Origin: Actinokineospora pegani
Lineage (GTDB): Bacteria; Actinomycetota; Actinomycetes; Mycobacteriales; Pseudonocardiaceae
Length of the DNA stretch: 64,000 bases
Assembly (NCBI RefSeq): GCF_009745975.1
Contig: NZ_WHOL01000056.1
Span: 1 to 64,000 of the forward strand
Direction of reading: 5' to 3'
Numbering within the stretch: the stretch's first letter is position 1; each line of letters begins with the position of its first letter. The translations under genes were made by a program, and so were the position numbers. The notes under the pieces were generated by a model. That model saw nothing but the letters and a program-made list of their open reading frames with translations. It was not told the DNA's origin and ran no database searches. Shown piece by piece: positions 5,427-27,144 of the stretch.

Positions 5427-6655
5427 CAGTTGTCGCCCCCGTTCCAGTTCGGGTTCTCCCAGATCACGGTGCCGCCCATGCCGATGCCGATGCACATCGA
5501 GGTCAGGCCGTAGCGGACCTCGGGGTGCTCGGCGAACTGGCGGGAGAGCTGGGTCATCAGCCGCACGCCCGAGGAGGCCAGCGGGTGCCCGCAGGCGATG
5601 GCGCCGCCCCACATGTTGACGCGCGGGTCGTCGTCGTCGATGCCGAAGTGGTCGAGGAACGCCAGCACCTGCACGGCGAACGCCTCGTTCAGCTCGAACA
5701 GGCCGATGTCTGAGATGGACAGACCGGCGCGCTTGAGGGCCTTCTCCGTGGCCGGGACCGGGCCGATGCCCATGACCTCGGGCTCGACGCCGACGAAGGA
5801 GTAGCCGACCAGGCGCATGCCGACGGGCAGGCCCAGCTCCTTGGCGGTCTCCTCCTCGGCCAGGATGCAGCCGGTCGCGCCGTCGTTGAGGCCGGCGGCG
5901 TTGCCCGCGGTCACCCGGCCGTGCGGGCGGAACGGGGTCTTGAGCGCGCCGAGCTGCTCGACGGTGGTGCCGGGGCGGGGCGGCTCGTCCTCGGTGGCCA
6001 GGCCCCAGCCCAGCTCCGCGGAGCGGGTGGAGACGGGGACCAGCTCGGGGCCGATCTTGCCCGCCTTGACCGCGTCGGCGTACTTCTCCTGCGAGCGCGC
6101 GGCGTAGGCGTCGCAGCGCGCCTTGGTGAGCTGCGGGAACCGGTCGTGCACGTTCTCCGCGGTCTGGCCCATGACCAGCGCGGTCGGGTCGACGAGCTTG
6201 TCGGCCACGATCCGCGGGTTGGGGTCGACGCCCTCGCCCATCGGGTGGCGGCCCATGTGCTCGACGCCGCCCGCGATGGCGATGTCGTACGCGCCGAAGG
6301 CGATGCCGCCGGCGAGCGTGGTCACCGAGGTCATCGCGCCCGCGCACATGCGGTCGATGGAGTAGCCCGGGACGGTCTTGGGCAGGCCCGAGAGCAGCGC
6401 GGCGGTGCGCCCGATCGTCAGGCCCTGGTCGCCGATCTGGGTCGTGGCCGCGACGGCGACCTCGTCCACCCGCTCCGGGGGCAGCTCGGGGTGGCGGCGC
6501 AGGAGTTCGCGGATGACCTTCACGACCAGGTCGTCGGCGCGGGTCTCCGCGTAGATGCCCTTCGGGCCAGCCTTCCCGAACGGCGTGCGCACACCGTCGA
6601 CGAAGACCACGTTCCGAACGGCGCGCGCGGCTGCGTCTGCAGCGGGTGCGGCCAC
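5426..6655 (-). CDS. fadA: acetyl-CoA C-acyltransferase (thiolase, FadA)
   Basis: Thiolase of 409 residues performing the last, chain-shortening step of fatty-acid beta-oxidation. The acylated cysteine lies in SIDRMCAGAMTSV (C104), NEAFAVQ marks the active-site loop, the catalytic histidine is in GGAIACGHPLASSG, and the second cysteine in SMCIGIGMGG. The GTG start at 6655 has an AAAGGAGC ribosome binding site 8 nt upstream. First gene of a two-gene operon with fadB. Two palindromic operators flank a TAGAGT -10-like hexamer in the 75-bp upstream gap, so the operon is likely repressed when substrate is absent. Ordinary length for the family. Confidence 0.95.
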   Translation of the reverse strand: MAAPAADAAARAVRNVVFVDGVRTPFGKAGPKGIYAETRADDLVVKVIRELLRRHPELPPERVDEVAVAATTQIGDQGLTIGRTAALLSGLPKTVPGYSIDRMCAGAMTSVTTLAGGIAFGAYDIAIAGGVEHMGRHPMGEGVDPNPRIVADKLVDPTALVMGQTAENVHDRFPQLTKARCDAYAARSQEKYADAVKAGKIGPELVPVSTRSAELGWGLATEDEPPRPGTTVEQLGALKTPFRPHGRVTAGNAAGLNDGATGCILAEEETAKELGLPVGMRLVGYSFVGVEPEVMGIGPVPATEKALKRAGLSISDIGLFELNEAFAVQVLAFLDHFGIDDDDPRVNMWGGAIACGHPLASSGVRLMTQLSRQFAEHPEVRYGLTSMCIGIGMGGTVIWENPNWNGGDN

Positions 6656-6678
6656 GAGGGTGCTCCTTTGTGGGGTTG

Positions 6679-6725
6679 GCTACCAGTTGGTAACCCCACT
6701 CTAGCGCTTGTTACCCGACGGTAAC
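6679..6725. promoter_or_regulatory. fadAB promoter with two palindromic operators
   Basis: Two copies of one dyad: GCTACC-AGTT-GGTAAC at 6679-6694 and the perfect GTTACC-CGAC-GGTAAC at 6710-6725, 31 bp centre to centre (about three helical turns). On the minus strand a -10-like TAGAGT (6698-6703) lies between them, so a bound repressor would cover both the -35 region and the start site. The motif differs from the sites in front of the adjacent tetR gene, so another regulator, perhaps a fatty-acid-responsive TetR or GntR protein encoded elsewhere, is implied. Confidence 0.65.
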
Positions 6726-6730
6726 TACGG

Positions 6731-7435
6731 CTACGACCCTATGGCGTGAGACACATTCGGGCGATTCGCGGCCGGGTGCAGCCCGAGGAAGCGGGCCATG
6801 TCGTCGACGGCGTGGGCGAAGAAGTGGTCGGCCGGGTCCGCGCTGCCCACGAGCTGGCCGAACAGCTCGAAGCTGAGCATCCCGAACAACTGCGTCCACG
6901 CGGTCATCAGCCGCGCCATCGCCCCCGGCGGCAGCGTCGAGCCGATGCCCGCCAGCACCTGGGTGAGCTGGGCGCGCAGCGCCTCGGGCAGGTCCTCGTC
7001 GGCGAGGTCGGCGGCCTCGGCCACGCGCACCAGGGTCAGCGGGACCCGGGCGGCGGGGGCGACGGTGTCGACGGGGGCGCGGTAGCCGGGGATGGGCGAG
7101 CCGAAGATCAGCTCGTACTCGTGCCGGTTGGCCAGCGCCCAGGCCCGCGCCGCCGCGCAGACCGCGTGCCACCACGCGGCGGGCTCGTCCGGCTCGACCG
7201 CCTCCACGGCCGCGCCCAGCGCGTCGTAGGCGTCGATGATCAGCGCGGTCAGCAGGTCGTCGCGGCTGGGGAAGTAGCGGTAGATCGCCGACGAGGCCAT
7301 GCCCAGCGCCCTGGCCACGGCCCGCAGCGATAGCTGCGAGGGTCCGTCGGTGGCGAGCTGGCGGCGGGCCTCGTCCTTGATCGCCGACGTCAGCTCTGCC
7401 CTGGCGCGCTCGCGCGCGGTCTGCCCGGCTCCCAT
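6731..7435 (-). CDS. TetR family transcriptional regulator
   Basis: A 234-residue TetR-type repressor. The N-terminal helix-turn-helix (about 15-60) reads AIKDEARRQLATDGPSQLSL then VARALGMASSAIYRYFPSRD, the family signature. The C-terminal ligand domain contains WWHAVCAAARAWALANRHEY and matches the WHG-type TetR C-terminal region. Start ATG at 7435 faces the divergent oxidoreductase gene; three copies of a GAGAGC-N3-GCTCTC dyad fill the shared 126-bp gap, so it probably represses both itself and that gene. It ends only 6 bp before the fadAB operators, and read-through into fadA is possible. The inducer is unknown; a hydrophobic compound acted on by the neighbouring oxidoreductase is a reasonable guess. 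Confidence 0.9.
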   Translation of the reverse strand: MGAGQTARERARAELTSAIKDEARRQLATDGPSQLSLRAVARALGMASSAIYRYFPSRDDLLTALIIDAYDALGAAVEAVEPDEPAAWWHAVCAAARAWALANRHEYELIFGSPIPGYRAPVDTVAPAARVPLTLVRVAEAADLADEDLPEALRAQLTQVLAGIGSTLPPGAMARLMTAWTQLFGMLSFELFGQLVGSADPADHFFAHAVDDMARFLGLHPAANRPNVSHAIGS

Positions 7436-7453
7436 GGGGCGAGTGTGACACAA

Positions 7454-7545
7454 CGAGAGCGGTGATCTCAAATGAGAGCAGTGCTCTTGACAGCGCCCGC
7501 CCGGCCCCGCTTCACTGGTCCAGCACACCGAGAGCACCGCTCTCG
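7454..7545. promoter_or_regulatory. three TetR-type operators in a divergent promoter
   Basis: Three dyads with the same geometry lie between the regulator and the oxidoreductase: 7454-7470 CGAGAGC-GGT-GATCTCA (imperfect), 7473-7489 TGAGAGC-AGT-GCTCTTG, and 7529-7545 CGAGAGC-ACC-GCTCTCG (perfect 7-bp arms). A TTGACA -35-like hexamer for the rightward gene (7487-7492) overlaps the middle site. Autoregulation by the TetR protein is the simplest reading. Confidence 0.75.
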
Positions 7546-7564
7546 CTGATCCCGGGAGACGATG

Positions 7565-8047
7565 ATGACCATGGCCGAGCAGACCCCCCAGCAGGACCAC
7601 TCCAAGCGCTACCTCAAGCCCGGCGCGTTCACCCGCCACGGGTTCAACGGGCTCGTCGGCTTCCTGGTCAAGCGCGGGGTCAACGTCTGGGGCTCGCGCA
7701 TCCTGTCCGTGCGCGGCCGCAAGTCCGGCGAGATGCGCTCGACCCCGGTCAACCTGCTCGTCTTCGAGGGCGAGAGCTACCTGCTCTCCCCGCGCGGCCA
7801 CAGCCAGTGGGTCCGCAACCTGCGCGTGGTGGGCGAGGGCGAACTCCGCGTCGGCAAGCGCGTCCAGCGCTTCACCGCCGTCGAGCTCGACGACGCCGTC
7901 AAGCCCCCGCTCCTGCGCGCCTACCTCAAGCGCTGGGCCTTCGAGGTCGGCGCGTTCTTCGACGGCGTCAGCCACAAGTCCTCGGCAGACGAGCTGCTCG
8001 CCGTCGCGCCCAAGCACCCGGCCTTCAAGATCACCTTCGTGGAATAG
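7565..8047 (+). CDS. nitroreductase family deazaflavin (F420)-dependent oxidoreductase
   Basis: A 160-residue protein of the DDN/DUF385 split-barrel family, which uses the deazaflavin F420 (or related flavins) to reduce or bind small hydrophobic compounds. Recognisable segments are FLVKRGVNVWGSRILSVRGR, KSGEMRSTPVNLLVFEGESY, LLSPRGHSQWVRNLRV and the terminal AVAPKHPAFKI. ATGs at 7562, 7565 and 7571 are in frame; GGGAG at 7554-7558 gives the best spacing to 7565. It is divergent from, and likely controlled by, the TetR regulator. Its natural substrate cannot be inferred. F420 use is a family property, not shown by the sequence itself. Confidence 0.85.
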   Translation: MTMAEQTPQQDHSKRYLKPGAFTRHGFNGLVGFLVKRGVNVWGSRILSVRGRKSGEMRSTPVNLLVFEGESYLLSPRGHSQWVRNLRVVGEGELRVGKRVQRFTAVELDDAVKPPLLRAYLKRWAFEVGAFFDGVSHKSSADELLAVAPKHPAFKITFVE

Positions 8048-8052
8048 CCAAC

Positions 8053-8205
8053 AGGCCGTGCTTTGGAAGTCCATGTCCGCGATAGCCGCGCCGGATGTGG
8101 CCCCTGACGGCACGGGGCGAAGGCATCAGCACAACACCTCCGCCCCGCACCGCCAGGAACCACCCCGATCACGACTCTCATCGAACGAGACTCCCAAACA
8201 CGGCC
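8053..8205. terminator. terminator hairpin inside a larger inverted repeat
   Basis: Between two convergent genes a hairpin with 15-nt arms (8109-8123 and 8137-8151, three mismatches) is a good bidirectional terminator. It is enclosed by a second, longer-range inverted repeat: AGGCCGTGCTTTGG at 8053-8066 and CCAAACACGGCCT at 8193-8205, which match as complements except for one bulged base. The outer arm abuts the rnd stop codon. Confidence 0.6.
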
Positions 8206-9449
8206 TAGCCCGCTGACGCGCGCAGGGCGGTGGACAGGGCCTCGGCGACCAGGGCCGTCTGCCAGGTCCGGGCCCCGCCCGCGCGCAGGGTCGCGGTGAC
8301 GGTGTCGACGTCGGTGTCGGCGGGCGGGGTCCAGCAGGTCCGGCGGAGCAGGTCCGGCTGCAGGAGGTTCTCCATCGGCAGCCGGTGCTCCTCGGCGATC
8401 TTGCCCAGCGCGGCGCGCGCCGCGGCCAGGCGGGCCGCCGCCTCGGGGTCCTTGTCCGCCCAGCGGTTGGGGGGCGGGGGGCCGTCGGTGGGCGGTGAGG
8501 GGTCGGGCAGGTCGCTCTTGGGGAGCTGGGCGGCGGTGCGCAGCGCGCGCATCCACAGGGCGACCTGGCGGCGCTGGGCGCGGCCCTTGAAGACCGGCAG
8601 TTGCAGCAGCGAGCCCTCGTCCGGCGGGTTGGCCGACGCCGCCTGGATGATGGCGCTGTCGGGCAGGACCCGGCCGGGGGCGATGTCGCGGTCGCGGGCC
8701 AGGCCGTCGCGGGCCTCCCAGAGGGCGCGGATGGCGGCGAGGCCGCGCGGGGTGCGCACGCTGTGGATGCCCGAGGTGCGCCGCCACGGCTCCTTGCGCG
8801 GGGCGGCGGGCGGGGCGGTCCGCAGGGCCTCGAACTCCTCCAGCGCCCACTCCAGCTTGCCCTGGGCGCGCAGCTCGGCCTCGAGCGCGTCGCGCAGCGG
8901 CACCAGCAGCTCCACGTCCAGCGCGGCGTAGTTCAGCCAGTCCACCGGCAGCGGGCGGCGCGACCAGTCCGCGGCGCCGTGGCCCTTCTCCAGGTGGTAG
9001 CCCAGCAGCAGCTCGACCAGGGTGCCCAGGGCGACCCGCTCGAAGCCCGCGAGCCTGCCCGCGAGCTCGGTGTCGAACAGCTTGGCCGGGCGCAGGTCCA
9101 GCTCCGACAGGCACGGCAGGTCCTGCGACGCGGCGTGCAGCACCCACTCGTCGCTGCCCAGGGCCTCGACGAGGGGGTCGACGCGGTTGTCCACGGCGAT
9201 GGGGTCGATCAGGAAGGTGCCCGCCCCCTCGCGCTTGACCTGCACCAGGTAGGCGCGTTGGGAGTAGCGGTAGCCGGAGGCGCGCTCGGTGTCCACGGCG
9301 ATCGGGCCACTGCCCGCGCTGATGCGCCGGGACGCGCGCTCGAGGGTCTCGAGGTCGGCCACGACGTCCGGGGTGCCTGCCACGGGCTCGGTGAGCGGCA
9401 CCGGGGCGGTTGGGTCAATCCCGGTTGGTTCCGAGGCGGGGGTTGTCAC
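8205..9449 (-). CDS. rnd: ribonuclease D family 3'-5' exonuclease with HRDC domain
   Basis: A 414-residue DEDDy exonuclease. Exo I is AVDTERASGY (D53, E55), Exo II is HAASQDLPCL (D110) and Exo III is LNYAALDVELL (Y174, D178). An HRDC-type nucleic-acid-binding domain follows at about 215-290 (RGLAAIRALWEARDGLARDR, DIAPGRVLPDSAI), then an actinobacterial C-terminal extension. RNase D enzymes trim the 3' ends of tRNA precursors and other structured RNA. The N-terminal ~30 residues are proline- and threonine-rich and probably disordered. Transcribed alone; it ends in the convergent terminator region. Confidence 0.9.
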   Translation of the reverse strand: MTTPASEPTGIDPTAPVPLTEPVAGTPDVVADLETLERASRRISAGSGPIAVDTERASGYRYSQRAYLVQVKREGAGTFLIDPIAVDNRVDPLVEALGSDEWVLHAASQDLPCLSELDLRPAKLFDTELAGRLAGFERVALGTLVELLLGYHLEKGHGAADWSRRPLPVDWLNYAALDVELLVPLRDALEAELRAQGKLEWALEEFEALRTAPPAAPRKEPWRRTSGIHSVRTPRGLAAIRALWEARDGLARDRDIAPGRVLPDSAIIQAASANPPDEGSLLQLPVFKGRAQRRQVALWMRALRTAAQLPKSDLPDPSPPTDGPPPPNRWADKDPEAAARLAAARAALGKIAEEHRLPMENLLQPDLLRRTCWTPPADTDVDTVTATLRAGGARTWQTALVAEALSTALRASAG

Positions 9450-14415: not shown

Positions 14416-15405
14416 GTGCCCAAGCTCCTCCTGATCGCCACCGGCGACAGCCTGGCCCAAGTCCGCCACAGCACCCCGCCACGCGTGGCCGACGCCGCCG
14501 AACTGCTCGCCCTCGCACCCGCCGACACCGACGCCCGCGGCCTCGACCTCACCGTCGAGCCGTCCTGGGACACCACCCCGGGCAGCCAGCTCGCCATCGC
14601 CCGCCACGTCCGCTCCGCCCTGCTCGACGACGCCCACGACGCCGTGGTCGTCTCCCACGGCCTCGACACCGTCGAGGAGACCGCGTTCCTCACCGACCTG
14701 GTCCTCGCCGAGGCCGCCGACCTCGGCTCCGTCGTGTTCACCGGCGCCCTGCGCGCCCTCGACGACCCCGCCACCGACGGCCCGCCCAACCTGCGCGCCG
14801 CCTTCACCGCCGCCCTCGACCCGGTGACCGCCGGCCTCGGCGCACTGCTCTGCGCCGACGGCGAGCTGCACGCCGCCCGCTGGGCCACCCTCGCCGACAC
14901 GACCAGACCGCCCGCCCTGTCCTCGGCCCCGCACGACCGCCTCGGCCGGGTCGAGGGCGGCGGCGCGGTCCTCGAACGCCGGGCCCCACCCCGGCCCCCG
15001 GTCGCGCGAGACCTGCCGGAGACCGACGTCGCGCTGGTCAAGACCTACCCGGGGATGCCCGTCTCGGTGCTCACCGCCGTGGTCGACGCCGGGGCGCGCG
15101 GACTGGTCGTCGAGGGCACCGGGGCGGGCAACCTGCCCGTCGAGCTGCTCCTGCCGCTGCGCGAGATCATCTCCTGGGACATCCCGGTCGTGCTGGCCTC
15201 GCGGGCCGCCACCACCGGCCCGCCCGCCGTCCCACCCGCAGGCGGCGCACTGCCGGTGGCGGCGCTCGGCCTGGCCGCGCGGGTCGGGGTGCTCAGCGCG
15301 GGCGGGCTGCGACCCGGCCACGCGCGGATGGCCCTGATGGCCGCCCTGGGCTCCGGCGGCGGGGTGAAGGCCGCGCGGGACTACTTCGCCGCGCTCTGCC
15401 CCTGA
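14416..15405 (+). CDS. asparaginase/glutaminase family protein, atypical first motif
   Basis: A 329-residue protein of the L-asparaginase I/II fold. The second catalytic region is recognisable as VVSHGLDTVEETAF (usual form THGTDTxEETA), and EGTGAGNLP matches the conserved C-terminal motif. The N-terminal motif, normally TGGT with the nucleophilic threonine, reads IATGDSLA: the first threonine and glycine are kept, but the following Gly-Thr is Asp-Ser. The 'T' of THG is also serine. It may have altered specificity or be inactive. GTG start 18 bp after the terminator hairpin. Its 3' end overlaps the convergent DUF3000 gene by 25 bp. Confidence 0.75.
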   Translation: MPKLLLIATGDSLAQVRHSTPPRVADAAELLALAPADTDARGLDLTVEPSWDTTPGSQLAIARHVRSALLDDAHDAVVVSHGLDTVEETAFLTDLVLAEAADLGSVVFTGALRALDDPATDGPPNLRAAFTAALDPVTAGLGALLCADGELHAARWATLADTTRPPALSSAPHDRLGRVEGGGAVLERRAPPRPPVARDLPETDVALVKTYPGMPVSVLTAVVDAGARGLVVEGTGAGNLPVELLLPLREIISWDIPVVLASRAATTGPPAVPPAGGALPVAALGLAARVGVLSAGGLRPGHARMALMAALGSGGGVKAARDYFAALCP

Positions 15406-15959
15406 CCACCGCGCTGGGTGAACAGCGCCACCCCCTCCGGGGGCAGGCCCACGACACTGGCCATCAGGTCGCAGAACGCCTCGCCGTGCGGGCCGAGGCC
15501 GCCGGTCGGGGTCCACGACGCGCGCAGCTCGAGGTCGTCGGTGCGGGCCGGGCCCGCGATGTCGCCGAACCGGGCCGAGGACGTGTCGGTGACCGTGCCG
15601 CCCAGCGCGCTGAACTCCGCCTCGGCCGCGGCGAGCGCGTCGGTCAGCCACGACCAGCCCACGTTGGGCAGCAGCGGGTCGTCGGCCAGCTCCACGTCCA
15701 GCTCGGCCCGCACGTACGCCACCACCCGCAGCACCCCGTTCCAGGCCTCCTGGCCCTCCGGGTCGTGCAGCAGGATCAACCTCCCGGTGGCGTGGACGTC
15801 GGCCGGGCCGGTCGCCTCGGCGGTCAGCGCGTACGCGAACGGGGCCAGCCGCTGCGGCGGGCGGACCTCCGCGAGCGCCAGCTCCGAACGGGGCCGGAGC
15901 GACTTCAGCGCCGCGACGGCCTGGACGAACAGTTCAGGCGCGGTCGACGTACCAGTCAC
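15381..15959 (-). CDS. DUF3000 family protein
   Basis: A 192-residue actinobacterial protein matching DUF3000 as I remember it, from segments such as [48 protein letters not shown] and [16 protein letters not shown]. Function is unknown. No signal peptide or membrane segment is visible. Start is GTG at 15959. It lies divergent from hemE across 145 bp, a neighbourhood often seen for this family in actinobacteria, but no role in haem synthesis has been shown. Overlaps the 3' end of the asparaginase-like gene tail to tail by 25 bp. Confidence 0.75.
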
Positions 15960-16104
15960 GACTGGTGACTGTAGGACCACCCGAGTCAGTGAGTGGGAGG
16001 GCGCGCCGAGGGCGAGCGACCCGATTGCGCCACCGACCGTGGAGCGACTGGCCGGTAACCCGGCGCGGCGGGCGGCCCCGGGGCCGTGGGACCATGGCGG
16101 GGCC

Positions 16105-17208
16105 ATGACTGATCTGACGCACCCGGCCCCGGCCAGCTCCATCGAGCCCGCCGCCCGCCGGGACCTCGCGGACGCGCCCTTCCTCGTCGCCGCGCGCGGT
16201 GGCGTGCCCAGCCGGGTCCCGGTCTGGTTCATGCGCCAAGCGGGCCGCTCACTGCCGGAGTACCGGGAACTGCGCGCGGGCACCCGCATGCTGCAAGCCT
16301 GCTTCGAGCCGGAACTGGTCCGCGAGATCACCCTGCAACCCATCCGCAGGCACGACGTCGACGCCGCCATCCTGTTCAGCGACATCGTCGTGCCGCTGCG
16401 CGCCGCGGGCATCGAGCTCGACATCGTCCCCGGCACCGGCCCCGTCGTCGACCACCCCGTGCGCACCCTCGCCGACGTCCAGGCCCTGCCGGTCCTGCAC
16501 CCCGAGCAGGTCGACCCGGTCGCCGACGCGGTGCGCCTGCTCGTCGCCGACCTCGGCGACACCCCGCTCATCGGGTTCACCGGAGCCCCGTTCACCCTCG
16601 CCTCCTACCTGGTCGAGGGCGGGCCCAGCCGCAACCACGAGCGCACCAAGGCGCTCATGTACGCCGACCCCGACACCTGGCACACCCTGCTCGACCGGCT
16701 CGCCGACACCGCCCTGACCTTCCTGCGCGCCCAGATCGCCGCGGGCGTCGACGCCGTGCAGGTCTTCGACTCCTGGGCCGGGGCGCTGTCGACCCGCGAC
16801 TACCGCGAGTACGTCCTCCCGCACTCGGCCAAGGTCCTCGGCGGCCTCGCCGACGCGGGCGTGCCGCGCGTCCACTTCGGCGTGGGCACCGGCGCGCTGC
16901 TCGGCTCGATGCGCGAGGCGGGCGCCGACGTCGTCGGCGTCGACTGGCGCACCCCCCTCGACGAGGCCGTGCGCCGCGTCGAGCACGAGACCGACCGCGG
17001 CGGCGTCGTCGTGCAGGGCAACCTCGACCCGGCGACGCTGTTCGCGGGCGACGACGTGGTGCGCCGCGAGGCCACCCGCATCGTCGACGAGGGCCGCGCC
17101 GCCGCCGGGCACATCTTCAACCTCGGCCACGGCGTGCTCCCCGACACCGACCCGGACGCGCTGACCCGCCTGGTCGCCCACCTGCACACCCTCACACCAG
17201 GCCGATGA
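16105..17208 (+). CDS. hemE: uroporphyrinogen decarboxylase
   Basis: Uroporphyrinogen III decarboxylase, 367 residues, converts uroporphyrinogen III to coproporphyrinogen III. The signature [15 protein letters not shown] (about 39-53, with the substrate-binding arginines) and the catalytic aspartate in [10 protein letters not shown] (D93) are present, as are [24 protein letters not shown] and [16 protein letters not shown]. First gene of a haem run: its stop overlaps the start of hemY in an ATGA, and chdC follows. Together these form most of the coproporphyrin-dependent haem branch used by actinobacteria. The ferrochelatase gene is not in the window. Confidence 0.96.
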
Positions 17209-18632
17209 CCCCGCCGGTGCGCCCGCCGCGGGTCGCCGTCGTCGGCGCCGGGATCTCCGGCCTGACCGCCGCGCACCGGCTGCGCGACCTGCTCGGGCCC
17301 ACCGCCGCGATCACCGTCGTGGAGCAGACCGACCGCCCCGGCGGCAAGCTGCACACCACCGAGGTGGGCGGCCTGCGCGTCGACGTCGGCGCCGAGGCCT
17401 ACCTGCACCGCCGCCCCGAGGTCACCGACCTGCTGGCCGAGCTGGGCCTGGCCGCCCGGGCCACGCACCCGGCCAAGGCCCGCTCCACCGTCCGCGCGGG
17501 CGGCGTCACCCGGCTCATCCCCGGCGGCACCGTCATGGGCGTGCCCACCACCGCCGGCGCCGTGGCCGACCTGCTCACCGACGACGCCCGCGCGCGGGTC
17601 GCCGCCGAACCCGACCTGCCCGGCCTGGACTGGACCGGCGACGCCGCCCTCGGCCCGCTGCTGCGCGCCCGCTTCGGCGACGAACTCACCGACCGCCTCG
17701 TCGACCCCCTGCTCGGCGGCGTCTACGCGGGCGCGGTCGACGGCCTCGGCCTGCGCGCCACCATGCCCGGCCTGGCCACCGCCCTCGACGACGGCGCCAC
17801 CTCGCTCACCGCGGCCGCCGCCGCGAGCGCCCCCACCCCCTCCGGCGGCCCCGTCTTCGGCACCGTCGACACCGGCCTGGGCACCCTCGTCGACGCCCTC
17901 GTCGCCACCGCCGCGGCCGACCTGCGCCTGGGCACGACGGTCCGGCGACTGGAGCGCACCGCCGCGGGCTGGCGGCTGCACCTGGGCGCCAACACCCCCG
18001 CCCACGCCCCGGACCACCCCGCCCTCGACGCCGACGCGGTCATCCTCGCCGTGCCCGCCCCCGCCGCCCGCAAACTCCTCGACGGCGTGGTCCCCGCGGC
18101 CTCGGCCGCCTACGGCCAGGTCGAGGTCGCCTCCATGGCCGTCGTCGCCCTCGTGCTGCCCCCCGGGACCGAGCTGCCCGGCACCAACGGCGTGCTCCTC
18201 TCGGCGGGGGAGCGCAAGCTCGACGGCACCCCCTTCGCCGCCAAGGCGTTCACCTTCTCCCACACCAAGTGGCCGCACCTGCGCGCCGCCGGACCGGTCC
18301 TGGTCCGCGGCTCGGTCGGCCGCCACCACGACCCCGGCGCCCTGCGCGCCGACGACGACGAACTGGTCCGCCTCGTCCGCGCCGACTTCACCGAGCTGAC
18401 CGGCGTCGGCGCCCCGCCCATCGACACCGCCGTCCGCCGCTGGGGCGGCGGCCTGCCCCAGTACGGGGTCGGGCACACCGCGCTCGTCGAGCGCGTCGAA
18501 CGCGCCGTCGCCGCCGAACCGGGCCTGGCCGTGGCCGGGGCGACCCTGCACGGCGTCGGCCTCCCCGCCTGCGTGGCCACCGGGGACGCCGCCGCGCGCC
18601 GCGTCGCCGAGCACGTGACCGGGAACGCCTGA
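17205..18632 (+). CDS. hemY: protoporphyrinogen/coproporphyrinogen III oxidase
   Basis: FAD-dependent oxidase, 475 residues, oxidising coproporphyrinogen III to coproporphyrin III in the actinobacterial pathway (CgoX in the newer nomenclature). The dinucleotide-binding motif is [17 protein letters not shown] (about 10-26), followed by [14 protein letters not shown] and the family segment [32 protein letters not shown] and the C-terminal [20 protein letters not shown], which binds the FAD, complete the fold. Starts inside the hemE stop (ATGA), so the two are translationally coupled. A 44-bp gap separates it from chdC. Confidence 0.93.
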
Positions 18633-18676
18633 CTCCTGCTGGAACCGCTCCCGACCGGGGTGCGACTATTGAGGGC

Positions 18677-19369
18677 ATGGCGCGCCTGAACTATGCCGAG
18701 TTGAACGACACCATCCGCTACACCATGTGGTCGGTCTTCCGCGTCGAGGCGGGGAAGCTCCCGGAGGACCGGGGCGACGCCGCCGCCGCGACGACCGAGT
18801 ACCTGGACGCCCTCGAGGGGAAGGGGGTGGTGGTGCGCGGGGTCTACGACGTGGCCGGGCTGCGCGCGGACGCGGACTACATGATCTGGTGGCACGCGGA
18901 GTCGATCGAGGAGCTGCAAGCCGCCTACACCGGCTTCCGCCGCACCCCGCTGGGCCGGGTCTCCGACCCGGTCTGGTCGCAGGTCGCGCTGCACCGCCCC
19001 GCGGAGTTCAACCGCAGCCACATCCCCGCCTTCCTCGCGGGCGAGGAGGCGCGCAAGTACATCTGCGTCTACCCCTTCGTCCGCTCCTACGAGTGGTACC
19101 TCCTGCCCGACGACGAGCGCCGCAAGCTCCTCGCCGACCACGGCAAGGAGGCCCGCGACTACCCGGACGTGCGCGCCAACACCGTCGCCTCCTTCGCCCT
19201 GGGCGACTACGAGTGGATGCTCGCCTTCGAGGCCGACGAGCTGCACCGCATCGTCGACCTGATGCGCCACCTGCGCGGCACCGAGGCCCGCCTGCACGTG
19301 CGCGAGGAGACCCCCTTCTACACCGGCACCCGCGTGCCCCCGGCCGAACTGGTCGCCAACCTGCCGTGA
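18677..19369 (+). CDS. chdC: coproheme decarboxylase ChdC (HemQ)
   Basis: A 230-residue chlorite-dismutase-like protein that makes haem b by decarboxylating two propionates of coproheme. The reactive tyrosine region is [16 protein letters not shown] (Y132 likely catalytic) and the proximal iron-ligand histidine is in [15 protein letters not shown] (H155). The N-terminal half contains [10 protein letters not shown] and [17 protein letters not shown] at 18677 is preceded by GAGGG. It is third in the haem run after hemE and hemY and confirms that this organism uses the coproporphyrin branch. The next gene, a CoA-transferase, starts inside its stop codon (GTGA). Confidence 0.95.
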
Positions 19370-24003: not shown

Positions 24004-24342
24004 ATGGTCTCGACAGGAACCCAGGGACTCCCGGAGGACGACTGGGGCCCGGAGCGGCGCGCGGGGCGGCGGGACCGCTTCCAGGACGACCTGGTCGGCC
24101 TGGACCCGGACGACCCCGACGCGCTGGCGTTCGCCGAGCACCTCGACCGGATGGAGCGGGTGCGCAACGGGTACACCGTCGAGGGGTACCTCGGCGGGGT
24201 CCAGGACTTCGCCGAGAGCGCGAACCGCCTCGGCGGCCACCGCAGGCTCACCGCGGGAATCCTCGCGGCGCTGATCCTGTTGGGAGTGGTAGTGGCCGCG
24301 TGGGACTCCGTGCTGTTCATCCTCGGCGTCCTGTTCGGCTGA
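24004..24342 (+). CDS. small single-pass membrane protein, unknown function
   Basis: A 112-residue protein with an acidic soluble N-terminal part and a hydrophobic C-terminus. Residues about 84-110 (LTAGILAALILLGVVVAAW and on) form one or two short membrane segments that end at the C-terminus, so it may be tail-anchored. No known domain is recognised. It lies 67 bp after hisS and 47 bp before msrB on the same strand and may be part of that transcript. ATG at 24004. Confidence 0.65.
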   Translation: MVSTGTQGLPEDDWGPERRAGRRDRFQDDLVGLDPDDPDALAFAEHLDRMERVRNGYTVEGYLGGVQDFAESANRLGGHRRLTAGILAALILLGVVVAAWDSVLFILGVLFG

Positions 24343-24389: not shown

Positions 24390-24821
24390 GTGGTCGGCAT
24401 GAAGCCCGTCGTCGGCGCCACCCCGCGGGTGGTCAAGTCGGATCAGGAATGGCGTGTGCAGCTCGACCCGCGCGAGTACGCGGTGCTGCGCCAGGCGGGC
24501 ACCGAGCCCGCCTTCACCGGCGAGTACACCGACACCAAGACCGAGGGCGTCTACGCGTGCCGCGCCTGCGGGGCCGAGCTGTTCCGCAGCGACACCAAGT
24601 TCGAGTCGCACTGCGGCTGGCCGTCGTTCTTCTCCCCGCTGGCGGGGGAGAGCGTCGTGCTGCGCGAGGACCGGGAGTTCGGCATGGTCCGCACCGAGGT
24701 GCTCTGCGCGAGCTGCCACAGCCACCTCGGGCACGTGTTCGAGGGCGAGGGCTACCCCACCCCGACCGACCAGCGCTACTGCATCAACTCGATCTCGCTG
24801 CGGTTGATCGAAGCGGGTTGA
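24390..24821 (+). CDS. msrB: peptide-methionine (R)-S-oxide reductase
   Basis: MsrB of 143 residues; it reduces the R form of oxidised methionine in proteins. Zinc is held by CRACG and CASCHSHLGH; the catalytic cysteine is in QRYCINSISLR. GWPSF and the conserved HLGHVFEGE loop bind the substrate. The GTG at 24390 is preferred because GGAGGAG lies 5 nt upstream; the ATG at 24399 would be 14 nt away. The stop codon lies inside a 15-bp direct repeat (GGTTGATCGAAGCGG twice), so the last residues are repeated in the untranslated tail. A terminator hairpin follows at 24863. Confidence 0.95.
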   Translation: MVGMKPVVGATPRVVKSDQEWRVQLDPREYAVLRQAGTEPAFTGEYTDTKTEGVYACRACGAELFRSDTKFESHCGWPSFFSPLAGESVVLREDREFGMVRTEVLCASCHSHLGHVFEGEGYPTPTDQRYCINSISLRLIEAG

Positions 24822-25080: not shown

Positions 25081-25980
25081 ATGGGAGAGACGTGGGGGAT
25101 CGCCGGACCTGACTTCCTGCGCGGTTACGCCGTCGCCCTGGCGTTCGCGGCGCTGGCCTGGACGGCGGTGCGGCTGATCGCCCGTTCCGGCCCGCGCGGG
25201 ACCTGCGCCGACGCCGTGCCGCACAGCCTGCTCACGCTCGACGAGCTGGCCTACCTCGCGGGCGGGCCGCGCAGGCTCGTGGAGGTGTCGCTGGCGCGGG
25301 TGCTCGACGCCGGGCTGGTGCGGCCCAGCCGCGCCGGTCGGGTCCGGGTCGTGGCGGGGGCCTCGACCGTGCACGACGTGGACAGCGCCCTGCTGTCGGA
25401 TGCCGGGGGCTACCGGTACCGGACAGTGGGCTCGCTGGTCGACCAGGTCGGTCGGAGCGCGCCGGTGCGCGACATCGGCGCCGCCCTGACCCGCAAGGGG
25501 TTGCTGGTCGACCGGGGTTTCTGGAACGGGCCGGGCGCCGCCCTGCCGTTCGCGCTGTTGTTCGCGGTCGGGACGGCGCGGGTGGCCGCCGGTGCGGCGG
25601 GGGGCCGCCCGGTCGCGCCGCTCGTGCTGCTCCTCGGGGTCACCGCCGCGGTCGGCGTCGTGCTCGCCAGGCGGGCGCTGCCGCTGCGGACCCACGCGGG
25701 GGACCGGGTGCTGGCCGAGGCCACGGCGGCCAGGGTCGGCGACTTCGGGCCGGGGGCGGCGCTGCTCGGCGGGGTGGCCGGGCTCGTCGCCCTCGGCGGC
25801 CTCGCCGCGCACCCGGACGCCGAGGTCAGCTCCGCGCTCGAGCCGGTGTGGCAGGCCGCGTCGGGCACGAGCTGGTCGCCGTACTCCGGCGGCGAGAACC
25901 CCACGGGGGCCTCCTGCGGGGGACCCGCGTCCGGCGGCAGCCGCGGAGGGGACGGCTGCGGCGGCGGGTGCGGGGCCTGA
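25081..25980 (+). CDS. TIGR04222-like membrane protein with Cys/Gly-rich tail
   Basis: A 299-residue membrane protein. A membrane segment lies near residues 13-33 ([20 protein letters not shown]), others at about 148-200 and 225-245. The soluble part between them ([29 protein letters not shown]) matches TIGR04222 proteins as I remember them. The last 22 residues are almost only Gly, Ser and Cys, with cysteines at 279, 293 and 297 (ending [10 protein letters not shown]). The next gene encodes a DUF692/MNIO enzyme, a family that modifies cysteines in peptide substrates, so the tail may be its target. ATG at 25081 with GGGGAAG upstream. Separate from msrB by a terminator. Confidence 0.75.
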
Positions 25981-26020
25981 TCGGCTGATCGGGTCCGGCC
26001 CGGGGGGAGCGGGGAGCACA

Positions 26021-26830
26021 ATGGGCGGCATGGGAGAGCTCGGGATCGGCATCGGCTGGCGGTCGGAGATCGACCTGACCGTGGAGCGGCTGCCGGGGGT
26101 CGACTTCGTCGAGGTGGTCGCGGAGAACCTGCACCGCGACCACCTGCCGGACTCGATCGCGGTCCTGCGCGAGCGCGGGACCCCGGTGCTCCCCCATGCC
26201 GTCTCGCTCTCGTTGGGCGGGGCCGACCCGGTGGACATGGACCGCGTCGAGCACCTCGCCGCCGTGGCCCGGTTGACCGACGCGCCCCTGGTGAGCGACC
26301 ACGTCTGCTTCGTCCGCGCGGGCGGGCTCGACTCCGGTCACCTGATGCCGGTGCCGCGCACCCGCGAGGCGCTGGACGTGCTGGTGGCCAACGTGCTGGC
26401 CGCCCAGTCGGTCCTCGAGGTGCCGCTGGCGCTGGAGAACATCGCCGCTCTGCTGAGCTGGCCCGACGCCGAGCTGACCGAGGCGCGGTTCCTCACCGAG
26501 CTGACCGAGCGCACCGGCTGCGGGCTGCTGATCGATGTCGCCAACATGTGGGCCAACGCCCGCAACCTCGGCGAGGACCCGGAGGCGCTGCTCGACGGCC
26601 TCCCGCTGGAGCGCTTGGCCTACGTGCACGTGGCGGGCGGTGTGGTGCGCGACGGCGTCTACCACGACACGCACGCCCACCCGGTGCCCCAGGAGGTGCT
26701 GGACCTGCTGGGCCTGCTGTGCGACCGCGTCTCCCCGCCGGGCGTCCTCTTGGAACGCGACGACCACTACCCCTCGGACTCGGCGCTGGCGGCGGAGCTG
26801 GAGGCCATCCGCGCGGTGGTGCGCCGGTGA
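26021..26830 (+). CDS. DUF692 / MNIO family multinuclear iron oxidative enzyme
   Basis: A 269-residue TIM-barrel protein of the DUF692 (MNIO, MbnB/BufB/TglH-like) family, non-haem multi-iron oxygenases that rework cysteine or other residues of ribosomal peptides. All expected metal ligands are visible: H59 ([11 protein letters not shown]), H94 (VSDHVCF), E139 (LALENIAA), D172 ([13 protein letters not shown]), H203 (YVHVAGG), D216 and H218 (HDTHAHPVP) and E245 (LLERDDHYP). It follows the Cys-tailed membrane protein by 40 bp and overlaps the helper gene by GTGA. ATG at 26021 is used; ATG at 26030 is also possible. The substrate is not known. Confidence 0.9.
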
Positions 26831-27144
26831 CCGGCGCGCGCGAGCGGCTGGCCGCCCAGCAGTCGGCCCTGCTGCACGCCCTGCTCGCAGGCGGGCCCGC
26901 GCCCGCGGGGTTCGACGAGGCGGCGCTGCGGGTCGAGGCGGACGCGCTGCTGGCCAAGCGGCGGCGGGTCGTCGCGACGATCACCCCGGAGACCGCGCAA
27001 GCGTGCGGGGCTGAGTTCGCCGCCCTGTTCGCCGAGTACGCCAGGGCGAACCCGCGCCGGGCGGGATCGCGGGCGCGGGAGGACGCGGCGGCGTTCACCG
27101 CGTTCATCGCCGCGCGCGAGCGCCGCTGGTGGCGGCGGCGCTGA
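26827..27144 (+). CDS. small MNIO-partner protein (SCO6045-like)
   Basis: A 105-residue, arginine- and alanine-rich helical protein whose GTG start overlaps the stop of the MNIO gene. [20 protein letters not shown] and [20 protein letters not shown] resemble the Streptomyces SCO6045-type proteins found beside DUF692 genes, from memory. In characterised MNIO systems a small partner protein binds the peptide and presents it to the enzyme; tight coupling here suggests the same job. No membrane segment or signal peptide. It ends in a run of basic residues (RERRWWRRR). Confidence 0.7.

Follow-up and report, generated by a model that had tools for sequence, protein, structure and literature searches.

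A conserved actinomycete operon in which an MNIO enzyme and its probable partner protein may modify the cysteine-bearing tail of a TIGR04222 membrane protein

A stretch of 64,000 nucleotides from Actinokineospora pegani (the window) contains three consecutive genes on the forward strand that encode a TIGR04222-domain membrane protein of 299 amino acids (25081..25980), an MNIO (DUF692) enzyme of 266 amino acids (26030..26830) and a helper protein of 105 amino acids (26827..27144). The MNIO gene starts with the ATG at 26030 (an alternative start lies at 26021) and ends with the TGA stop codon at 26828-26830, and the helper gene starts with a GTG at 26827 that shares four bases (GTGA) with the end of the MNIO gene. 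A preliminary description of this DNA had noted a consecutive trio of a membrane protein, an MNIO enzyme and a 105-residue protein beginning inside the MNIO stop codon, and a Gly/Ser/Cys tail on the membrane protein with cysteines at residues 279, 293, and 297. The trio is confirmed by the coordinates, by the family scores and by its recurrence in other genomes (76 out of 76 linked clusters among the matches listed), the start of the third gene agrees with the four-base overlap, and the tail with its three cysteines is read directly from the sequence. The membrane protein matches the NCBIfam model TIGR04222 with 103.9 bits (cut-off 43). The genome contains four TIGR04222 matches, three of them over the cut-off, and a single MNIO gene, that of the window, and the nearest named relatives of this MNIO belong to Actinokineospora (at most 89% identity). 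A scan of the region for promoters and terminators, which is uninformative for this organism, found none.

MNIO enzymes are known as editors of small peptides. The MNIO of the window matches PF05114 with 272.7 bits (cut-off 25), which places it in the MNIO/DUF692 superfamily. All nine iron-binding residues described for TglH (PMC10880893) have the same residue in the window MNIO, eight of them by alignment (H91, E136, D169, N172, H200, D213, H215, and E242) and the ninth (H56) assigned by motif only, in agreement with the earlier claim that every metal ligand is present. The best NCBIfam model is MNIO_BufB (NF050167) with 194.2 bits, which is below the curated cut-off of 310 and leaves the enzyme outside the bufferin maturases (BufB) as defined by that model.

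The helper of the window matched no Pfam family over threshold (DUF2063 15.9 bits, cut-off 27.2), and DUF2063 was matched by nine out of 44 helper relatives at E ≤0.01 (best 5.7e-7); the helper alignment (A2) comprises the window helper together with 43 of the 82 helper matches (44 sequences). The structural model is a four-helix protein (pLDDT 90), for which Foldseek returned two PDB chains only, TglI (E 5.9) and MbnC (E 7.4), and VIA-align gave MbnC (Z 6.5) and TglI (Z 4.5) with a ribosomal protein in the third row (Z 3.1). Taken singly these matches are weak; both Foldseek matches are partner proteins of MNIO enzymes. A search of PDB sequences with the helper profile returned colicin B (E 0.57) and nothing else, and this was dismissed as a chance match. 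Natural fusions of the two proteins were found in a single open frame that covers MNIO and helper at one locus (L122) and at seven out of seven MNIO loci (L323-L329) of genus f5/g53, which belongs to the same class as the window but lies outside its order. Because both Foldseek matches are MNIO partners and because the helper is naturally fused to the MNIO, the helper is very probably the partner protein of the enzyme. It is too short to hold an RRE domain and it shows the features of a PME-type 2 partner (DUF2063-like, no Pfam signature, coded after the MNIO).

Operons composed of TIGR04222, MNIO, and PME-type 2 genes with Ser/Gly/Cys tails were described by Antoine et al. (2025, PMC12452194), who proposed the tail as substrate. 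The window protein, with a TIGR04222 score over the cut-off and its C-proximal cysteines 279, 293, and 297, has the features of these operons, and since that paper reports such clusters the window operon belongs to a described, experimentally uncharacterised group. According to the passages on TIGR04222 in that paper, more than 25% of the TIGR04222 proteins are without a C-proximal cysteine, one third of the TIGR04222 genomes are without an MNIO, at least 10% of the TIGR04222 clusters contain a PME-type 2 protein while many appear partnerless, and a 115-amino-acid Saccharothrix protein represents PME-type 2 as model A. The same passages contain no gene-by-gene test of cysteine tails against MNIO presence, and in a full-text search of the open PMC library TIGR04222 appeared in one other paper (PMC5183585), which mentions it once.

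The conservation of the operon was surveyed in 150 genomes of the family to which the window belongs, with TIGR04222 found in 88 and MNIO in 79 of them, and clusters were counted from 152 listed TIGR04222 places and 92 MNIO rows (one of three G050 pieces). Overall, 76 linked clusters spread over 24 genera were identified among the matches listed, and in each of them one to four TIGR04222 genes (T) stand before the MNIO gene (M) on one strand (40 TM, 26 TTM, 9 TTTM, and 1 TTTTM). As the arrangement recurs in every linked cluster, it is not a product of chance. A profile of the window helper located a helper gene directly 3' of the MNIO gene in 74 of these 76 clusters, mostly with a four-base overlap, and the helper of the remaining two was recovered by a six-frame search. 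For 16 further MNIO places, no TIGR04222 place was listed at a distance of up to 5 kb. A helper is present at four of them, two of which are at contig ends and another of which (G135) has an adjoining unlisted TIGR04222 gene, and the other 12, without helper, are mostly followed by frames of approximately 250-320 amino acids. Among 80 named loci with relatives of the window MNIO, the helper is present in 80 and TIGR04222 lies upstream in 78, the other two being cut by contig ends, and all 78 have a TIGR04222 copy with at least two tail cysteines.

On the level of whole genomes, 77 of the 150 family genomes contain both TIGR04222 and MNIO, five TIGR04222 only, two MNIO only and 66 neither. Across 296 genomes of the phylum, the corresponding numbers with TIGR04222 over the cut-off are 10, 1, 5, and 280 (Fisher p 2.7e-14, uncorrected for relatedness). 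The expected co-occurrence of the two genes is thus borne out and a lack of co-occurrence is rejected. Several loci (within L205-L246, mostly Lentzea) carry tandem arrays of at least three TIGR04222 frames with differing tails, containing up to 12 cysteines, before one MNIO.

Upstream of the trio, and outside the claimed unit, the window encodes an MsrB (SelR) domain on the same strand (24462..24821, PF01641 164.6 bits), a homologue of which was recognised by eye upstream and on the same strand in 67 out of 80 related loci. Homologues of a small membrane protein (24004-24342) were recognised by eye upstream and on the same strand at 58 of the 80 loci, and a large protein is encoded downstream of the MNIO on the same strand in 48 (e.g., L250, about 5734-8786). 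Approximately 6 kb upstream, within about 15400-19369, lie a HemQ-like gene (motif match) and genes that we take to be HemY and HemE homologues; genes of the chlorite-dismutase family (HemQ-like) and the amine-oxidase family (HemY-like) occur near 38 and 17 of the 80 related MNIO loci, respectively.

The Gly/Ser/Cys tail of the TIGR04222 protein comprises residues 262-299 (25864..25977, forward strand) and is the presumed modification site, with Cys 279, Cys 293, and Cys 297 encoded at 25915-25917, 25957-25959, and 25969-25971. The AlphaFold2 model of the protein (mean pLDDT 82.2) has low pLDDT in this segment. In an alignment of 63 of the 185 TIGR04222 frames (A1), the unit C293-G296 (Cys-Gly-Gly-Gly) is conserved in at least 90% of the 63 rows and the other cysteines vary in number and place; a lack of cysteine conservation, which would have refuted the earlier interpretation, is rejected for this one unit. 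Among the matches listed, Gly accounts for 35%, Ser for 19%, and Cys for 6.4% of the tail residues (Cys amounts to 0.3% within the domain), most cysteines stand behind SS or GG and ahead of GG, GS or SS, and the last cysteine is located two residues from the C-terminus in 68 out of 138 Cys-bearing tails.

Tails of this composition might reflect low-complexity drift in a GC-rich genome, with the operon as a mere syntenic block. A composition test for cysteine selection is weak, and the number of tail cysteines is not above the expectation for independent codon positions (508 observed, 688 expected), as drift would have it. Some relatives also have Gly-rich tails without cysteine; among 15 weak-scoring long-frame relatives, five (L274, L276, L279, L285, and L287), which are presumably DUF2207 proteins, end in such Gly-rich runs. 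DUF2207_C (PF20990) is matched by five out of 63 relatives at E ≤0.01 (best 6e-6), and the window protein itself has no match. However, the tails avoid Trp (16 observed, 161 expected) and Arg (35 observed, 197 expected) although the same bases give these residues, and Cys is avoided far less. Furthermore, the cysteines track the MNIO, whereas Gly-rich tails partly persist without it, and the C293 unit is conserved. Drift is consequently regarded as a very improbable explanation, and the Gly tail looks older than its cysteines.

The distribution of the cysteines was compared with that of the MNIO gene. Adjacency to the MNIO was rejected as a predictor of tail cysteines since at least two are present in 109 out of 123 linked and in 24 out of 29 unlinked TIGR04222 copies among the matches listed (four of the 29 come from genomes where a contig end splits the operon). 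Whether a genome contains an MNIO predicts the tail cysteines better, although not in every case. Of the 77 genomes in which a tail with two or more cysteines was listed, 75 contain an MNIO, and a copy of this kind occurs in 75 of the 76 listed clusters; the exception (L099) has one tail cysteine and an MNIO that is broken over three frames.

A search of 329 genomes (at least 97% complete) for TIGR04222 without MNIO identified 14 near-complete MNIO-less genomes with TIGR04222 over the cut-off, of which 12 have no tail cysteine and two (G602 and G493) have one, with the qualification that two of the 14 (G631 and G639) have long frames of approximately 690 amino acids whose ends are possibly not comparable and that a third (G633) is almost tailless. 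The contrast is cleanest within a single genus (g5): with one row per genome, 22 out of 22 MNIO-positive genomes have two to five tail cysteines, the eight MNIO-negative genomes have 0, 0, 0, 0, 0, 0, 1, and 3 (at least two in one of eight), and the genomes with a degenerate MNIO have 0, 1, and 3 (Mann-Whitney p 1.5e-4 without correction for relatedness; the contrast covers approximately four independent losses). Five more MNIO-positive genomes of this genus, with which 27 (22 + 5) of the 33 genomes with a non-degenerate MNIO match were covered, carry a linked copy with at least two cysteines in four out of four readable cases, the fifth (G629) being cut by a contig end. The TIGR04222 domain itself persists where the MNIO has been lost. 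In a wider set of 113 rows from the family, at least two tail cysteines are present in 93 out of 93 rows with a full-length MNIO and in three out of 17 MNIO-negative rows, a comparison that favours the MNIO-positive side because the copy with most cysteines was chosen at multi-copy loci of the 150-genome set.

In a phylogeny built from the TIGR04222 domain without the tail, MNIO status changes six times and cysteine status four times, and four independent pairs on supported branches give a mean of 3.3 concordant and no opposite pairs. In the 113-row tree 3.1 out of five pairs are concordant, 4.5 out of five without two fragmented assemblies, and never opposite. As there are so few independent pairs, the sign test p stays between 0.06 and 0.5 depending on the set. 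The two fragmented assemblies, in which no MNIO match was found, have three tail cysteines (G104, 370 contigs) and two copies with four cysteines each (G096, 480 contigs). A further genome (G597) retains three tail cysteines beside a fragmentary MNIO, and two MNIO-negative genomes (G148 and G177) contain fragmentary TIGR04222 frames only, with one and zero cysteines. In one genome (G621; loci L401 and L402) the MNIO-linked TIGR04222 has two tail cysteines and the best-scoring TIGR04222, which lies elsewhere, has none, a pattern that would fit loss of the operon and gain of a second one. The unlinked Cys-free copy of this genome has the same tail end as its MNIO-less relatives. Overall, the comparison of cysteine tails with the MNIO gene across many genomes, which the preliminary description had called for, finds that the two are mostly present and lost together, with the exceptions listed. 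As MNIO and tail cysteines are lost jointly, the tail is supported as the target of the enzyme, and on these comparative grounds the link between enzyme and tail is well supported. The proposal that the tail is the MNIO substrate accordingly gained support by comparison, and as an idea it had been published before (PMC12452194).

A different arrangement, in which the MNIO-helper pair is recruited by TIGR04222 as a scaffold in the membrane or a partner in transport, the substrate is encoded elsewhere and the tail cysteines bind metal unmodified, would account for several of these observations. The domain stays after cysteines and MNIO have disappeared, and 10 out of 36 multi-copy clusters among the matches listed have a Cys-free copy. 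Genus f5/g53 has five TIGR04222 proteins near the fused MNIO-helper frame, of which four lack tail cysteines and one has a Cys tail; because of these four, the MNIO of this genus must have another substrate or act elsewhere. However, a scaffold does not require tail cysteines to vanish with the MNIO, and yet in genus g5 they mostly do. Moreover, a screen of the f5/g53 loci for operon-strand reading frames with a Cys-rich Gly/Ser tail, using simple rules for reading frames and composition, gave no convincing candidate for a substitute. Three frames from this screen that run on the MNIO strand and either overlap the MNIO frame or adjoin it at two loci without a TIGR04222 match (L327 and L328) were judged spurious by eye. 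Taken together, a pure scaffold role is considered unlikely. By visual inspection, the fused MNIO-helper loci of f5/g53 also have nearby heme-type genes similar to those upstream of the trio.

Hydropathy analysis of the window membrane protein identifies four transmembrane segments on residues 18-34 (25132..25182, a helix on residues 9-36 in the model), 153-169 (25537..25587), 178-194 (25612..25662), and 226-242 (25756..25806), and a soluble domain on residues 37-150 (25189..25530), all on the forward strand. The fourth segment is marginal in part of the family: its 17-residue hydropathy is 2.02 in the window protein, and a value of 1.5 is reached by 55% of 141 relatives. With the same threshold, 150 relatives (excluding proteins without stop codon or with internal stops) have four hydrophobic segments in 76, three in 57, two in nine and five in eight cases. 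The frequency of Lys and Arg per 100 residues is 1.8 before segment 1, 14.5 in the soluble domain, 21.0 before segment 2, 7.9 between segments 2 and 3, 21.6 after segment 3, 11.0 in the 20 residues after segment 4, and 3.8 in the outer tail. Following the positive-inside rule, the N-terminus is predicted outside and the soluble domain inside, and four segments would place the tail outside. On the basis of this charge distribution the soluble domain looks cytoplasmic, and domain and tail would lie on opposite sides since three crossings separate them. The side of the tail is not certain because segment 4 is below the threshold in 45% of the relatives and the stretch that follows it is not poor in Lys and Arg.

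The soluble domain weakly resembles GOLPH3/GPP34 proteins. Foldseek returned no match at E 0.001, and its sole high-probability match was Vps74, the yeast GOLPH3 (probability 0.99 but E 0.24). VIA-align matched GOLPH3 (Z 8.2 over 136 residues, rmsd 5.5; 3kn1, Z 7.6) and Vps74 (Z 7.0-7.5), which proves little alone because unrelated helical chains score similarly (a designed protein 7.8, spectrin 7.5, ferritins 6.1-7.0). A profile comparison by hhalign with 20 GPP34 proteins, taken from 27 PF05719 loci of which the excluded seven are TIGR04222 genes, gave 91.6% on residues 69-146 with controls below 1%. The window protein itself does not match PF05719 (GPP34) in Pfam, and the seven Cys-tailed TIGR04222 genes, all from the genus of the window (L352-L358), match it with E 3.9e-7 to 2.3e-4 (two out of seven over the cut-off, best 32.1 bits against 29.1). 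A distant relationship between the TIGR04222 soluble domain and GOLPH3/GPP34 is therefore probable but unproven. An assignment of the domain to the RRE-type winged helices found no confirmation, structure comparison pointing instead to GOLPH3/Vps74 with only moderate support; a search of the PDB with the TIGR04222 profile gave weak matches to winged-helix regulators (E 0.09-0.4) and, through the Gly tail, to antibody linkers. The A. pegani genome also encodes a GPP34 protein (L334, C52:32963-33568) with a Ser/Gly-rich, Cys-free tail that resembles TIGR04222 tails.

Our preferred interpretation, which we hold to be likely though far from certain, is that the three genes form one unit in which the MNIO and its helper modify the tail cysteines of TIGR04222. 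The DUF2063-like four-helix helper, which has no RRE, would pair with the MNIO in the cytoplasm, and the pair would oxidise at least one of the C-terminal tail cysteines that lie in Ser/Gly-Cys-Gly units. By analogy to bufferins or oxazolins, the product would probably be a thiooxazole or an oxazolone/thioamide-type heterocycle. Oxidation would take place before the tail crosses the membrane, the last transmembrane segment would bring the tail to the outer face, and the exposed tail might form a brush, tethered to the membrane, with metal-binding or redox activity. In a more speculative extension, to which we give little credence at present, the GOLPH3-like cytoplasmic domain would hold the MNIO-helper pair at the inner face in place of an RRE, and the enzyme would modify the tail before its export, serving several paralogues of a genome in trans. 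The operon would then represent a membrane-anchored system for protein modification and not a pathway to a peptide natural product.

One role that is compatible with tail modification is that of a surface buffer for copper or other metals, analogous to the periplasmic bufferins. The enzyme belongs to the same superfamily, with MNIO_BufB as its best, sub-threshold NCBIfam model, and metal or other stress roles have been suggested for such products in general (PMC12452194, in the part concerned). On the other hand, the recurrent neighbours (MsrB, the small membrane protein, the large protein and heme-pathway-type genes) included no recognisable copper gene, and we put this role forward tentatively, as something that may be true but that we do not expect. 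If the tail is edited, MNIO chemistry would reach membrane proteins of approximately 300 residues throughout an actinomycete family, and each genome would offer several possible target paralogues. Sister species that have the enzyme and others that lack it are singled out by the shared loss of MNIO and tail cysteines.

Compared with the clusters of Antoine et al. (PMC12452194), in the passages concerned, the window operon is alike in its protein families, its main gene order and the proposed site, a C-proximal cysteine segment. It differs in that a helper accompanies 76 out of 76 listed family clusters whereas many clusters in that paper are partnerless, and in that the charge distribution suggests a cytoplasmic soluble domain whereas the paper refers to "large periplasmic domain(s)". 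The words GOLPH3, GPP34, and Vps74 are absent from its main text. New in the present analysis are the T(1-4)-M order with helper in all 76 clusters among the matches listed, the largely shared loss of MNIO and tail cysteines, the fold and the fusion of the helper, and the predicted cytoplasmic, weakly GOLPH3-like domain. The bufferin system (BufA/BufB/BufC) shares the combination of an MNIO with a DUF2063-type partner and the cysteines of an exported product. In that system, the precursor carries a Sec signal peptide and the partner is of PME-type 1 (DUF2063 plus RRE; PMC12452194, in part), unlike the window unit with its large membrane protein, its 105-amino-acid partner without RRE and an MNIO under the BufB cut-off. 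TglHI (3-thiaglutamate) and MbnBC (methanobactin) likewise combine an MNIO with a partner protein, and the helper fold weakly matches both TglI and MbnC. The substrate of MbnBC, the methanobactin precursor, is a short peptide. TglHI also acts on a short peptide (PMC10880893), whereas the presumed substrate in the window is the tail of a membrane protein, and TglI has an RRE domain, for which the window helper is too short.
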